Of a stretch of DNA of 64,000 nucleotides, positions 2,567 to 33,825 are shown in pieces. Both the position numbers and the translations under genes were made by a program. Origin of the DNA: Vibrio sp. FE10 (GTDB lineage: Bacteria; Pseudomonadota; Gammaproteobacteria; Enterobacterales; Vibrionaceae). The stretch covers positions 2,046,001 through 2,110,000 of the forward strand of contig NZ_AP028068.1 of assembly GCF_030297155.1 (NCBI RefSeq), given 5' to 3'. Under the pieces are notes generated by a model, which was given only the letters and a program-made list of their open reading frames with translations, did no database searches and was not told the origin of the DNA. Position 1 is the first letter of the stretch. Each line of letters begins with the position of its first letter.

Positions 2567-2680
2567 GTGACCTAGTAGATTTGAGTAGTGACCTAGCAGA
2601 TTTAAATTATGACGTTACAGTTCTAAATAACGGCATTGCTGTTTTAATAATGACTTCGTTGTTTTAAGAATTGCATAGAA
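2567..2680 (-). repeat. Degenerate tandem repeat, about 21-bp unit, starting at the PhzF stop codon
   Basis: On the minus strand the 132 bp between the PhzF-like stop codon and the YgjV ribosome-binding site is filled by about six diverged copies of a 20-22-bp unit. The first copy begins with the PhzF TAA itself. The best two copies (plus strand 2567-2587 and 2588-2608) differ at only a few positions, and the others are more diverged. Confidence 0.7.
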
Positions 2681-2682
2681 GT

Positions 2683-3483
2683 TTAGACTGTTAAGGTACC
2701 ACTAATAACCGTGGTTGCAGACCCAATCAGTTTTATACGGCCGTTTGGCAATAACTCTGTCGATACATACCCACCGCGGCGTGACGCTTGGTAAGCATTA
2801 AAATGTGCTTTGTTCAGTTTCTCAGACCAATACTGTGTGAGAGCGCAATGCGCTGAACCCGTAACGGGATCTTCGTTTACCCCAACCCACGGCGCAAAAT
2901 AACGCGAAACAAAATCAAGCTCAGAGTTCGACGACAATGCCGTCACAACGACACCTCGGCCTTTAATACCCTTCAAGGCATCAAAGTTTGGCGTTAGATC
3001 CAATAGAACCTGTTCGCTAACAACTTCAATAAACTGCTTGGTATCGAACTCATTGAATGACACCACTTGGTCTTCACGCAGCCCTAAATATTCCAACAAC
3101 TCTTTATTGGCATCCAACCCAAGATCAAGCACTGTACTTGGGAAATCGAGCTCGATTGTCGAGTCACAGACTGTGGCAGATAGCTCACCCGAAAGCGTAT
3201 CAAATGTCACGACCTCCCCCACATTGACTAACCCTTTTTCCTTCATCACATGTACTGTTGCCAACGTACCGTGACCACATAATTTGACTTCAACTTCTGG
3301 TGTGAACCATTTCAACGTCATCGTATTGAGGGCTAAGAATGCCGTTTCTGATACTGCCATCTCTTCAGCAATCGAATACATCAACGACTCTTCTAAAGGT
3401 TCTTGTGAAATACAAACCCCTGCTGGATTTCCTTTAAAAGCTTGAGTAGTGAAAGAATCCACTTGATAAATTTCTAGGTCCAA
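2683..3483 (-). CDS. PhzF-family isomerase/epimerase-like protein
   Basis: A 266-residue protein of the PhzF family. The N-terminus QVDSFTTQAFKGNPAGVC is the classic opening. MAVSETAFL holds the conserved catalytic glutamate, CGHGTLA is the first conserved glycine-rich loop, and NEDPVTGSAHCAL is the second-domain signature. PhzF itself isomerises DHHA in phenazine synthesis, but most family members, including E. coli YddE, lie outside such pathways. No phenazine genes are present here, so a phenazine role is not implied. The TTG start is supported by AAGGAG seven bases upstream. Confidence 0.9.
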   Translation of the reverse strand: MDLEIYQVDSFTTQAFKGNPAGVCISQEPLEESLMYSIAEEMAVSETAFLALNTMTLKWFTPEVEVKLCGHGTLATVHVMKEKGLVNVGEVVTFDTLSGELSATVCDSTIELDFPSTVLDLGLDANKELLEYLGLREDQVVSFNEFDTKQFIEVVSEQVLLDLTPNFDALKGIKGRGVVVTALSSNSELDFVSRYFAPWVGVNEDPVTGSAHCALTQYWSEKLNKAHFNAYQASRRGGYVSTELLPNGRIKLIGSATTVISGTLTV

Positions 3484-3724
3484 AATGACTCCTTTTTCTA
3501 AGGGGAACGGGGTTAAGCCTTAAGTCGTTATCGCCACCATAAGCGTAAAAACTGAGTAGAACAACCATTGAAAAGATGCAGTTAGAATAATTCGTAGCTC
3601 CTTGCCAACATAGCTCTTTAGATGCATTGCATTAAGTTGAAGTTAAATTGGAGGCTTAAATTTGAACTATGTCTCAATTTTTAGGCTACGATCAAAGAGT
3701 TCACCTACGAAAGGGAATCCGTCA

Positions 3725-4756
3725 GTGAAAGCTTTATACGTTTCTATTCTTGCGTCACCTTTATTCTGGGTTGGTTCTGTTAGCGGCCAGCAACACGACA
3801 TTTATCTCTATAACTGGGATGAATTTTTGTCGGATAGTGTTATTACCCAATTAAGCGACACCTATGATATTTCGTTGAAGCAACAATTTTTCTCAGATGA
3901 ATCCATCAGAGATGAAGTTCTATTGAGCGAACGCCGAGGCGCTTTCGAACTGGTGGTGGTTGAAAGCGTAAAACTGAAAGCTTTAGCTAAACAGAATCTA
4001 TTTCACAACCTCAGTGAATTGCAGAGCTCCCTCGCCGATAACTTTGATTCTCGCTGGGCCGACGGATGCGGGGAATATGGTATCCCTTACGCTTGGGGAA
4101 CGTCTGGAATCTTGTACAGAACAGACAAAGTATCCCCCCCTCAATCTTGGAATGCCATTCTCGACCCCGACACCCAGAACAGTGGCAGAATAAGCATGTA
4201 CTACGAGCCAACGGATTTAGTGAGCACCGCCTTGTTAGTCAATCAATTTGATCCCTTCACTAATGATGAACAAGAACTTCGTGTCGCCTATCAAACCTTA
4301 CAAATTCAGAAGCCTCATCTCGAAAGCAATGAATACGTCGTTGACTATATCCACCAGCCAGAACGACTCACCAATATTGATTTGGCTTACGGATATTCCG
4401 GCGACAGTTATGTACTTAATGATGCAGACCCAGACGCTTCATGGGCTTATATAGTCCCTCAAGAAGGCACAACACTGTGGCTAGAGTGTATTGCCGCCAT
4501 TAACAATGGAGAGATGTCTTCACAGGCTTCCACTATCTTGTCGTTTCTTTCTCAACCAACCATTGCTGCACAAAATGCAATGGACTCCTGGTTTGCAACA
4601 CCAAGTTTAAAAGCGAAAGCACTAACTTCTCAAGAGTATCAAAATGATCCTGAGCTCTTCCCTAGTAAAGAGGTATTAGAACGCAGTTATCTGTATGAGC
4701 AACTCGAACCCAATAGCATTCAAATTCGTAATCGTATTGTCGACAGTTTGAGATAA
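3725..4756 (+). CDS. nspS: NspS-like periplasmic polyamine-binding protein
   Basis: A PotD-type periplasmic substrate-binding protein. After a signal-peptide-like start (VKALYVSILASPLFWVGSVSGQQ region) the mature part begins with DIYLYNWDEFLSD, the hallmark of spermidine/putrescine-binding proteins, and later has CGEYGIPYAWGTSGILYRTD. It lies 3 bp upstream of an MbaA-like GGDEF-EAL gene and there are no ABC permease genes. This matches V. cholerae nspS-mbaA, where NspS reports norspermidine or spermidine to MbaA rather than feeding a transporter (established for V. cholerae; inferred here). Two starts are plausible: GTG 3725 with AAAGGGA seven bases upstream, which gives a normal signal peptide, or TTG 3662 with TGGAGG, which adds 21 residues. 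I prefer 3725. Confidence 0.85.
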   Translation: MKALYVSILASPLFWVGSVSGQQHDIYLYNWDEFLSDSVITQLSDTYDISLKQQFFSDESIRDEVLLSERRGAFELVVVESVKLKALAKQNLFHNLSELQSSLADNFDSRWADGCGEYGIPYAWGTSGILYRTDKVSPPQSWNAILDPDTQNSGRISMYYEPTDLVSTALLVNQFDPFTNDEQELRVAYQTLQIQKPHLESNEYVVDYIHQPERLTNIDLAYGYSGDSYVLNDADPDASWAYIVPQEGTTLWLECIAAINNGEMSSQASTILSFLSQPTIAAQNAMDSWFATPSLKAKALTSQEYQNDPELFPSKEVLERSYLYEQLEPNSIQIRNRIVDSLR

Positions 4757-4759
4757 CCA

Positions 4760-31880: not shown

Positions 31881-31922
31881 GGGCAGAAAGAGTGGGTCAG
31901 AATAGAATTTGAGGATTTAGAG

Positions 31923-33308
31923 ATGAGTGTTGGAAAAATAGTTAAAGTTATCGGCGCGGTGGTAGACGTCGAGTTCAGCGGCGGCAACAGCCCACGCGTT
32001 TATGATGCATTGAAAGTGACGAGCGAAGAAGCAAGCTCGCTCGTATTAGAAGTTCAACAACAGCTGGGTGGCAGTATCGTTCGTTGTATTGCAATGGGCA
32101 CGTCAGATGGCTTGCGCCGCGGCCTAACTGTTGAAAACACAGGTTCTCCAATCACGGTTCCAGTGGGCGAAGAAACCTTAGGCCGTATCATGAACGTGCT
32201 TGGTCAGCCAATTGATGAATGTGGCGAAATCGGCCAGAAAGAAAGCTACGAAATTCACCGTGAAGCTCCTTCTTATGAAGAACAAGCCAACAGCACTGAA
32301 CTTCTAGAAACAGGCGTTAAGGTTATCGACCTTATCTGTCCGTTCGCGAAGGGTGGTAAAATTGGTCTGTTCGGTGGTGCTGGCGTAGGTAAAACCGTCA
32401 ACATGATGGAGCTTATCAACAACATCGCCAAAGCCCACTCAGGTCTCTCTGTATTTACCGGTGTTGGTGAACGTACTCGTGAAGGTAACGATTTCTACTA
32501 CGAGATGAAAGAAGCTGGCGTATTAGACAAAGTTGCCATGGTTTACGGTCAAATGAACGAGCCACCGGGAAACCGTCTACGTGTTGCGCTGACTGGCCTG
32601 ACTATGGCTGAGCGCTTCCGTGACGAAGGTCGTGACGTACTGTTGTTCATTGATAACATCTACCGTTACACACTGGCAGGAACAGAAGTATCCGCACTGC
32701 TAGGCCGTATGCCATCAGCAGTAGGTTATCAGCCAACGCTGGCTGAAGAGATGGGTGTTCTACAAGAACGTATCACATCAACCAGACAAGGTTCGATCAC
32801 GTCTATTCAAGCGGTATACGTACCTGCGGATGACTTAACCGATCCATCGCCAGCAACAACCTTTGCTCACTTAGATGCAACCGTTGTACTGTCGCGTAAC
32901 ATCGCTGCTTTAGGCCTCTACCCTGCAATCGACCCATTGGATTCAACCTCTCGCCAATTGGATCCTCTTGTGGTTGGCCAAGAGCACTACGACATTGCAC
33001 AAAAAGTACAAACAACGCTGCAACGCTACAAAGAGTTAAAAGACATCATCGCGATTCTTGGTATGGACGAGCTATCGACTGAAGATAAGCAGACCGTATC
33101 TCGCGCTCGTAAGATTGAACGTTTCTTAACTCAGCCTTATCACGTAGCCGAAGTATTTACTGGTCAGAAAGGTGTATTTGTACCGCTAAGTGAAACACTG
33201 AGAGGCTTTAAAGGCCTGCTAGGCGGCGAATACGACGATATTCCAGAACAGGCTTTCTTGTACTGTGGTTCTATCGACGAAGTGCTTAACAAAGCAAAAT
33301 CACTCTAA
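31923..33308 (+). CDS. atpD: F1Fo ATP synthase subunit beta
   Basis: 461 residues, the catalytic subunit. Walker A is GGAGVGKTV, with [14 protein letters not shown] (catalytic Glu), [34 protein letters not shown] containing Walker B and the DELSEED-type region later (near ILGMDELS). All catalytic motifs are intact. It follows atpG by 42 bp. Confidence 0.98.
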
Positions 33309-33323
33309 AAAGGTAGGTGCATC

Positions 33324-33767
33324 ATGGCTATCGGAGTTACAGACAATACATTTCAACTTAATATCGTAAGTGCGGAAGGTACGCTGTTTTCAGGTCCAGC
33401 GTATGCCCTAGCCGTTTCTGGCGCTGACGGTGAGCTGGGGATTCGCCCAGGTCACTCCCCGCTTCTAAGCAAAATAAAGCCGGGCGTGACAGTGTTTGTC
33501 ACAGACCCTAAATCAGAGGGACAAGTGCTGTATGTCTCTGGTGGCATGCTCGAAGTTCAGCCGGATGTGGTCACGGTGTTAGCCGATACCGCCTTGCACG
33601 GTAAAGACATTGACCGCGCTCGCGCAGAAGAAGCGAAATATGCGGCTCTTGAGAATATCAACAAGGGCAATGTCGACATCAATTTTGCACAAGCTCAGCT
33701 TGAACTGGCAAAAGCCGTTGCTCAGCTACGCGCATCAGAACTGACGTCTTCTCGCACTCGTCACTGA
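33324..33767 (+). CDS. atpC: F1Fo ATP synthase subunit epsilon
   Basis: 147 residues with the N-terminal beta-sandwich (LNIVSAEGTLFSGPAYALAVSG, GELGIRPGHSPLLSKIKPG) and a C-terminal helical hairpin that in this family inhibits ATP hydrolysis. It is slightly longer than E. coli epsilon. It is the last gene of the operon, followed by a short repeat array and a long perfect hairpin. Confidence 0.96.
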   Translation: MAIGVTDNTFQLNIVSAEGTLFSGPAYALAVSGADGELGIRPGHSPLLSKIKPGVTVFVTDPKSEGQVLYVSGGMLEVQPDVVTVLADTALHGKDIDRARAEEAKYAALENINKGNVDINFAQAQLELAKAVAQLRASELTSSRTRH

Positions 33768-33777
33768 GAATAGAACT

Positions 33778-33825
33778 TAGATGCAGGTGCTAGATGCTAG
33801 ATGCTAGATGCTTAGTGCTTGATGT
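33778..33825 (+). repeat. 7-bp tandem repeat after atpC
   Basis: TAGATGC occurs at 33778 and then in three perfect tandem copies (33791-33811), followed by diverged copies TTAGTGC and TTGATG. The array lies between the atpC stop codon and the long hairpin at 33831. Confidence 0.85.

Follow-up and report, generated by a model that had tools for sequence, protein, structure and literature searches.

Short tandem arrays in the 3' flanks of genes in a Vibrio genome of the Splendidus clade

Why should one gene after another be followed by a short tandem repeat, each with a unit of its own? The question is raised by a stretch of 64,000 nucleotides of Vibrio sp. FE10 (contig NZ_AP028068.1, positions 2,046,001 to 2,110,000; G000:C2:2046001-2110000 in our numbering), which is called the window here. 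An earlier note on it had described such arrays behind at least eight genes, and had proposed that they arise by a recurring local process seeded at the stop codon. The genome has 6.0 Mb in three contigs (C1, 3.81 Mb; C2, 2.14 Mb). Over a 21-kb neighbourhood it shares 96.7% identity with Vibrio lentus 10N.261.46.F8 (L158), the closest pair compared. This identity points to V. lentus or a close sibling as the source, within the Splendidus clade; we take the Vibrio species named under that clade to belong to it.

Abundance of the arrays and their position

Arrays were detected with Tandem Repeats Finder (TRF) at a score of at least 50 and a unit of 5-60 bp, a cut-off that overlooks decayed arrays. 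The own-genome sample, 1.264 Mb in all, joined the window to 60 further stretches, each of 20 kb, of which 40 lie on C2 and 20 on C1 (C3 being left out); without the window it is free of locus-choice bias. Genes were called with a codon-score script, a non-standard caller which partly misses short genes, e.g. the open reading frame (ORF) 26868-27269 of the window, and which is poor on one genome of the class (G094, 9 genes in 40 kb). A gene end was scored as array-bearing if an array of at least 15 bp lay within 100 nt or within half of the gap.

In this sample 88 arrays were found in 761 intergenic gaps, while 20 dinucleotide shuffles gave 1.55 on average and never more than 4. Short units standing head to tail beyond chance are what marks a variable-number tandem repeat (VNTR) or minisatellite. 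Arrays were borne by 60 of the 749 3' ends and by 11 of the 773 5' ends. When the window was excluded, the counts were 52/713 and 11/737 (Fisher p = 4e-8); in the window alone they were 8/36 and 0/36, on C1 22/226 and 1/240, and on C2 minus the window 30/487 and 10/497. The claim that the arrays lie 3' of genes and not at promoters is therefore borne out beyond the window, and the enrichment holds both against 5' flanks and against shuffled sequence. Per kb of gap, convergent gaps carried 0.87 arrays (33 arrays), codirectional gaps 0.45 (42) and divergent gaps 0.23 (13). A separate lag-match score, computed against shuffles for the first 864 kb, picked out 56/406 3' ends and 16/450 5' ends at p<=0.01; elsewhere it picked out 2/47 and 1/69 in E. 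coli, and 8/193 and 6/225 in other Vibrionaceae.

The arrays are not confined to the vicinity of the stop codon. Array coverage is flat past the stop (3.2-5.9% in each bin from 0 to 300 nt). Ahead of starts it is 0.3% over the nearest 20 nt and climbs to 1.8% at 140-200 nt. Density was 1.05 arrays per kb close to stops (within 100 nt, any start being at least 150 nt away; 42 arrays), as against 0.48 farther from the stop (15 arrays) and 0.59 in those parts of divergent gaps that keep at least 150 nt from either start (8 arrays in 13.6 kb). Within 60 nt of a stop it was 0.77 even when the next start was less than 150 nt away (10 arrays in 12.9 kb), and in the remainder of the 150 nt upstream of starts it fell to 0.16 (13 arrays). 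Array starts peak 0-20 nt past the stop (24/76), at 1.61 per kb, with 0.42-0.67 per kb between 20 and 100 nt.

For the 22 arrays with an identified terminator, the array lay between stop and hairpin in 16 cases, overlapped the hairpin in 1 and lay beyond it in 5; for a further 26 arrays the simple terminator scan found none. Arrays within the spacer lay nearer to the stop in 11 of 18 cases and nearer to the terminator in 7 (p 0.48; Kolmogorov-Smirnov (KS) p 0.30), and 11/18 started 0-20 nt past the stop, compared with 30% in a simple simulation. Stop trinucleotides in 48 arrays numbered 90.5 per kb on the sense strand, 79.9 on the antisense strand and 76.9 after shuffling (no formal test).

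The proposed seeding at the stop codon thus agrees with the peak of array starts, with the starts in the spacer and with the density in short gaps, but not with the flat coverage, the arrays of divergent intervals, the KS result or the weak strand bias. Support for such an anchor is weak. The arrays are spread over the entire 3' flank, with a modest excess beside the stop, and are depleted ahead of starts. As a separate observation, in two more distant Vibrio (L034 and L036) 7-bp arrays, TAGCAAG and TAGTAAG, start exactly at the TAG stop of the ortholog of the S33-like hydrolase gene, one of the eight genes in question.

Distribution among relatives and turnover of the flanks

In the orthologous windows of five close relatives, arrays were borne by 16/248 3' ends and 1/252 5' ends, counts that are biased upward by this choice of region. 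Ten other genomes of the genus gave 11/210 and 1/212 (one of them, G005, being near the Splendidus clade), eleven genomes of other Vibrionaceae genera 3/235 and 3/255, thirteen genomes of other families of the class 0/157 and 1/201, and 150 kb of E. coli K-12 0/80 and 0/86. A second set comprised 80 named loci centred on S33 orthologs; its counts are also biased upward, because that gene was chosen for its array here. Array-bearing 3' and 5' ends were 20/139 and 1/139 in the Splendidus clade, 15/523 and 5/549 in other Vibrio, 0/184 and 0/186 in Photobacterium, 4/162 and 0/170 in Enterovibrio-Grimontia-Salinivibrio-Veronia, and 3/85 and 1/81 in Psychromonas. Array frequency falls at the edge of the Splendidus clade, and at the S33 loci other Vibrio are not clearly above the Enterovibrio-like genera and Psychromonas. 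The pooled density on the 3' side was 0.90 per kb in the Splendidus clade, 0.42 in other Vibrio and 0.19 outside Vibrio, where it should be kept in mind that flanks within one clade are non-independent samples. Taken together, the original observation is sound and general to the Splendidus clade.

Two simple causes of this clade bias were rejected. AT-richness cannot be the sole cause, as Psychromonas (GC 0.37) has the low count of 3' ends given above, and two AT-rich members of the family have none (G116, 0/15; G117, 0/14). Loss of an anti-slippage nuclease (exonuclease VII, RecJ or SbcD) does not apply either: XseA and RecJ were found in 23/23 genomes and SbcD in 22/23, and all three are present in the own genome and its eight most similar genomes. 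The sole genome of the 23 without an SbcD match is a Vibrio (G003).

The flanks differ in length between genomes. When this genome was set against five relatives, a difference of at least 15 nt was seen in 15/18 comparisons of convergent gaps (median difference 28.5 nt), in 38% of the 80 of codirectional gaps (median 4 nt) and in 7/17 of divergent gaps, where the median was 0 nt and a few large differences raised the mean to 228 nt. In orthologous flanks the hairpin is kept while the spacer is replaced, with unlike units or an altered copy number, so the arrays are not fixed among relatives. The units behind the S33 gene and behind a BCCT transporter gene are common by descent, with shifting copy number.

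The comparison with V. lentus L158 covered 21.2 kb with 641 substitutions, and clean indels of 5-120 bp were counted. Eight were found, and seven of them were tandem by test: six in 3' flanks and one 12-bp in-frame change within a gene. The eighth, of 31 bp, resembles a short-unit expansion by eye. The six 3'-flank arrays differ by 48, 15, 17, 32, 63 and 16 bp; such whole-unit copy variation between close relatives is again a mark of VNTRs. Two changes are likely births of arrays: V. lentus has one TTCATTTGTTCA where TTCATTAG is repeated 7.5 times here, and a 17-bp stretch flanked by TACA, present once here, stands twice in V. lentus. These whole-unit differences, together with the unlike units found in the same flank across species, bear out the recurring local process that had been proposed. 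In two E. coli pairs of similar divergence (43.6 kb, 1,140 substitutions) a single indel was found, tandem and within a gene; three pairs each of other Vibrio and of non-Vibrio gave 0/4 and 1/6 tandem indels respectively.

The units fall into different size classes. The median array with units of 6-8 bp (n=16) is perfect and has about 6 copies; where the unit is 13-21 bp (n=48), there are 2.3-2.6 copies that agree to about 85%. Within coding sequence the period is a multiple of 3 in 29/30 arrays, and 3'-flank arrays follow no such rule (21, 25 and 30 arrays for the three remainders). When all arrays were compared with one another by blastn, at most 23 pieces matched at E<0.1 among 2,850 pairs. 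The units are thus mostly unrelated, as had been stated, apart from those few pieces.

Origin of the arrays

The arrays are probably VNTRs that form in place by slippage at short direct repeats, frequently in this clade, and that are selected out of genes and promoters. Where a direct repeat of about 4-5 bp recurs 7-20 bp apart, the replicating strand would slip and the intervening stretch would be duplicated; the new tandem copy would then grow, shrink and decay by whole units. Selection would purge such events from reading frames (unless they are a multiple of 3), from terminator hairpins and, for the most part, from the last 150 nt before starts. The survivors would gather in 3' flanks, chiefly in the spacer between stop and terminator, whose length is seemingly free above a floor of about 30 nt. 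The Splendidus clade acquires or retains arrays several-fold more often than other genera pooled. The direct repeats at the edges, the whole-unit steps, the loss of frame-breaking periods and the depletion upstream of starts fit slippage or tandem duplication followed by selection. The arrays, their bias to 3' ends and to the clade, the unlike units at orthologous sites, the whole-unit changes against V. lentus and the scarcity ahead of starts are direct observations; slippage as the molecular step, a neutral spacer and a raised input in the clade are inferred.

The distance from stop to hairpin was 28-157 nt among S33 orthologs (hairpin found in 16/21), 41-161 nt among orthologs of the window's gene 17095-17832 (18/20) and 38-81 nt among atpC orthologs (4/5). 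Across the first two genes no upper limit is kept, and a lower floor alone is visible. In E. coli a terminator about 30 bp past the stop is already at the plateau of full efficiency, according to the available text of PMC4824070. Given this short requirement and the wide range, the spacer would be a good place for arrays to survive. In mutation-accumulation lines of V. cholerae and V. fischeri, indels fall mostly within simple repeats (PMC5854121, in the part available).

Several results weigh against this account. Coding arrays are equally frequent in all groups (0.027 per kb in the Splendidus clade, 0.022 in other Vibrio and 0.022 in non-Vibrio, pooled), though a general rise in duplication should lift them. 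Since the density on the 3' side is unequal, it may be only in noncoding or 3' DNA that the excess arises. The equal coding density speaks against a simple genome-wide rise and keeps alive a hotspot at gene ends. The peak of starts at 0-20 nt, the share of in-spacer starts above the simulation and the density in short gaps likewise count against the account. Divergent gaps vary in length too, in spite of their median of 0. No gene loss among the three nucleases accounts for the clade. In addition, only 1 of the 9 clean indels from six Splendidus pairs of greater divergence (5-13% substitutions) was tandem, the other 8 lying in 3' flanks (2), 5' flanks (4) and coding sequence (2); in the same pairs 53 further gaps were too messy for classification.

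A second explanation, which we regard as possible and clearly the less probable, is that processes at gene ends raise tandem duplication in these vibrios, making the stop codon or the site of termination a hotspot. Candidates would be RNA-DNA hybrids behind the last ribosome, or pausing of RNA polymerase or fork stalling at the hairpin. The confinement of the excess to noncoding DNA is in its favor, and so are the peak of array starts just past the stop, the density within 100 nt of stops as compared with more distant and divergent DNA, and the persistence of arrays beside stops that are closely followed by the next start. Coverage that stays flat to 300 nt and the lack of a significant lean of arrays within the spacer count against a hotspot at the stop. 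Nor is there a link with replication direction (leading 28/401, lagging 35/337 array-bearing ends; p 0.11) or with expression as judged by coding score, a poor stand-in (p 0.97). Moreover, arrays are raised in the clade upstream of starts and in divergent gaps as well: within 150 nt upstream of starts the pooled densities are 0.18 per kb in the Splendidus clade, 0.12 in other Vibrio and 0.06 in non-Vibrio (26 arrays in Splendidus against 7 in non-Vibrio), and in the middle of divergent gaps 0.37, 0.09 and 0.11 (8, 1 and 2 arrays). We consider it rather doubtful that the clade has its own source of duplication at noncoding gene ends, coupled to termination; if it had, 3' spacers would be hypervariable genome-wide and strains would differ in the length of their 3' untranslated regions (UTRs), and perhaps in read-through.

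A third explanation holds that a longer distance from stop to terminator, or extra in-frame stops, are favored, and that duplication merely supplies them. The hairpin does start at a median of 71.5 nt from the stop where there is an array (n=22) and at 43 nt where there is none (n=190), a terminator too near the stop fails in E. coli (PMC4824070, as far as available), and the shortest distances seen for the three genes above are 28, 41 and 38 nt. However, array-less orthologs go down to 28 nt and one and the same gene spans 28-157 nt, while efficiency in the E. coli system (same source, same extent) is flat above about 30 nt; stop trinucleotides do not stand far above shuffles and show little strand bias; and 5 of the 22 arrays lie beyond the terminator. 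Selection for spacers therefore seems improbable. The suggestion that arrays in the 3' UTR buffer read-through gains no support, and the stop-to-hairpin distance varies freely. Backup stop codons were rejected for the little strand bias and the lack of a clear sense-strand excess in the arrays. Strong RNA structure was rejected too, the effect being slight (70 arrays against shuffles: median z -0.28, 20% below -2, Wilcoxon p 0.007). No function is supported by these results: orthologs manage without arrays, stop codons are not clearly enriched and structure is slight.

Enterobacterial repetitive extragenic palindromes (REPs) also prefer 3' flanks, and some arrays are more structured than shuffles. 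Nevertheless, a dispersed family, or a mobile element of the type of REPs or of miniature inverted-repeat transposable elements (MITEs), landing at gene ends is very hard to credit, since units are mostly unrelated between sites, two arrays probably arose from single-copy local sequence and orthologous flanks carry unlike units; a REP, bacterial interspersed mosaic element (BIME) or MITE family was rejected, as blastn showed no related sequence at many sites. An assembly artefact is just as far-fetched: the V. lentus sequence is a whole-genome shotgun contig that may collapse long arrays, but three changes are longer in V. lentus (17, 31 and 32 bp), which collapse cannot produce, and arrays occur in 2-4-contig and fragmented genomes alike, some of them common to related genomes.

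The arrays of the window and comparison with known systems

All eight arrays named earlier were recovered by TRF, which adds two unlisted ones, of 18 bp and 8 bp, in the convergent gap 7193-7641. Matches above the NCBIfam cut-off were obtained for PhzF, the GGDEF domain, ccoP and atpC; the S33 hydrolase, the BCCT transporter and the LysR-type regulator matched below the cut-off only, and the genes 17095-17832 and 2047-2550 had no family match in NCBIfam. The description of the arrays as anchored at the stop codon fits some of the eight, and others start 47 to 75 nt away. Their placement between stop and hairpin at the S33, 17095, BCCT and atpC genes was right, by eye.

The PhzF array (2560-2613, minus strand; 21 bp, 2.6 copies by TRF) starts 69 nt past the stop and lies between the PhzF-like gene and the gene called at 2047-2550. 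It ends 9 nt ahead of the called start of the latter, a weak call (score 8); a fainter 21-bp register reaches back, by eye, to the stop at 2683, and the gap is 132 nt here and 91 nt in a relative (G011). The 17-bp array at 7255-7305 (plus strand) starts 62 nt past the stop of the GGDEF/EAL gene 4760-7192, earlier named mbaA; in the relative G018 this flank has an unlike array with a 16-bp unit. In the same gap follow an 18-bp array of 3 copies (7391-7444, no strand assigned), present in V. lentus too, and the TTCATTAG array of 8-bp units (7468-7527, minus strand), 114 nt past the stop of gene 7642-8667; the V. lentus site is 48 bp shorter, and G018 has other 8-bp and 7-bp arrays behind this GGDEF gene.

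Behind ccoP, 15-bp units (14141-14202, plus strand) start at +47, beyond the hairpin; V. lentus has one unit fewer and G011 about two units (by eye). The S33 array (15278-15334, minus strand; 16 bp) starts at +10, between the stop of the S33-like hydrolase gene (15345) and the terminator hairpin, and a related unit in varying copy number is found in 8/21 orthologs. The array of gene 17095-17832 (16977-17073, minus strand; 9/27 bp) also lies between stop and terminator hairpin, starting at +21; it is 63 bp shorter in V. lentus, G006 has an unlike 15-bp array, and 5/20 orthologs carry an array. The BCCT array (19851-19940, minus strand; 16/32 bp, in overlapping TRF rows) starts at -18 and spans the last codons, the stop and the spacer; arrays follow 12/17 orthologs of this BCCT-like transporter gene, with one common unit in 10 of those 12. 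The gene 17829-19652 contains an in-frame 12-bp tandem duplication (GCTTCACTTGGT x 2) at 17896-17919, where V. lentus is 12 bp shorter.

The LysR array (26132-26188, plus strand), an 8-bp CTTTGTAT repeated 7.1 times, starts 75 nt past the stop of the LysR-type gene and, by eye, beyond the hairpin; V. lentus has 5.1 copies, and the unit is absent from the other 15/17 orthologs. A 19-bp array at 26752-26811 lies about 57 nt upstream of the ORF at 26868 that the gene caller missed, and would be a rare case close 5' of a start if this ORF is real. The atpC array (33778-33824, plus strand; 7-bp TAGATGC) starts at +10, between stop and hairpin, and G011 has about two TAGATGC-type units (by eye). A second ATP synthase operon lies on C2 (28379-33767 of the window); matches to the epsilon subunit were found at C1:3789151-3789540 and, in the window, at C2:2079348-2079737. 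From 34000 to 64000 no intergenic array reached a TRF score of 50; this part has few 3' spacers and long runs of minus-strand genes.

As tandem-unit change makes up 7/8 indels of at least 5 bp in the closest pair, it may be a main way for 3' flanks to diverge in this clade over short times. Pairs farther apart are too messy for the same claim (1/9 clean indels, with 53 unclean gaps, in six pairs). Such change would also explain, in one clade, how 3'UTRs come to lose conservation at the stop codon, as they are known to do. The arrays are a candidate set of strain markers, and the drop beyond the Splendidus clade makes the cause of the clade bias testable.

REPs and BIMEs of enterobacteria are dispersed, related palindromes that prefer 3' flanks and convergent gaps; the arrays share both preferences, but their units are mostly unrelated and local. 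Among published cases, the available text on the TAACTGA repeats of Beggiatoaceae (PMC4679880) likewise describes many short intergenic direct repeats in one marine lineage, but there a single heptamer occurs at 169 places in one genome, whereas units here are nearly site-specific. For orthologous 3'UTRs, PMC7821165 reports, in its available text, that conservation is lost around the stop codon and that length differs between species, and lists rearrangements, local changes and insertion sequences as the processes; the words "tandem" and "repeat" are absent from its main text, and in the present flanks one process that can be seen is tandem duplication. A survey of short repeats in bacteria and archaea (PMC12699852, available text) found a weak enrichment up- and downstream of genes, preferentially past translation ends. 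This downstream preference matches the arrays here, but its units are 1-9 bp, the effect is weak and no Vibrio appears in the main text, while units of 13-21 bp dominate here. A survey of prokaryote satellites (PMC6749651) does not have the word "Vibrio" in its main text either, and none of six location words is present in the available text of a Vibrio VNTR paper (PMC3265528). Clade-specific tandem arrays 3' of Vibrio genes were not reported among the matches listed, whose coverage leaves out most subscription papers.

The closest known system is that of VNTR loci, which serve, in the sources as available, for the typing of Vibrio by multiple-locus VNTR analysis (MLVA). The arrays resemble them in their head-to-tail units, their whole-unit copy change among close relatives and their local origin, and the perfect 6-8-bp arrays are like MLVA markers. 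They differ in being concentrated 3' of genes, in having many degenerate units of 13-21 bp, and in a density that is a trait of one clade. The arrays are thus a strong, clade-specific variant of known bacterial VNTRs.

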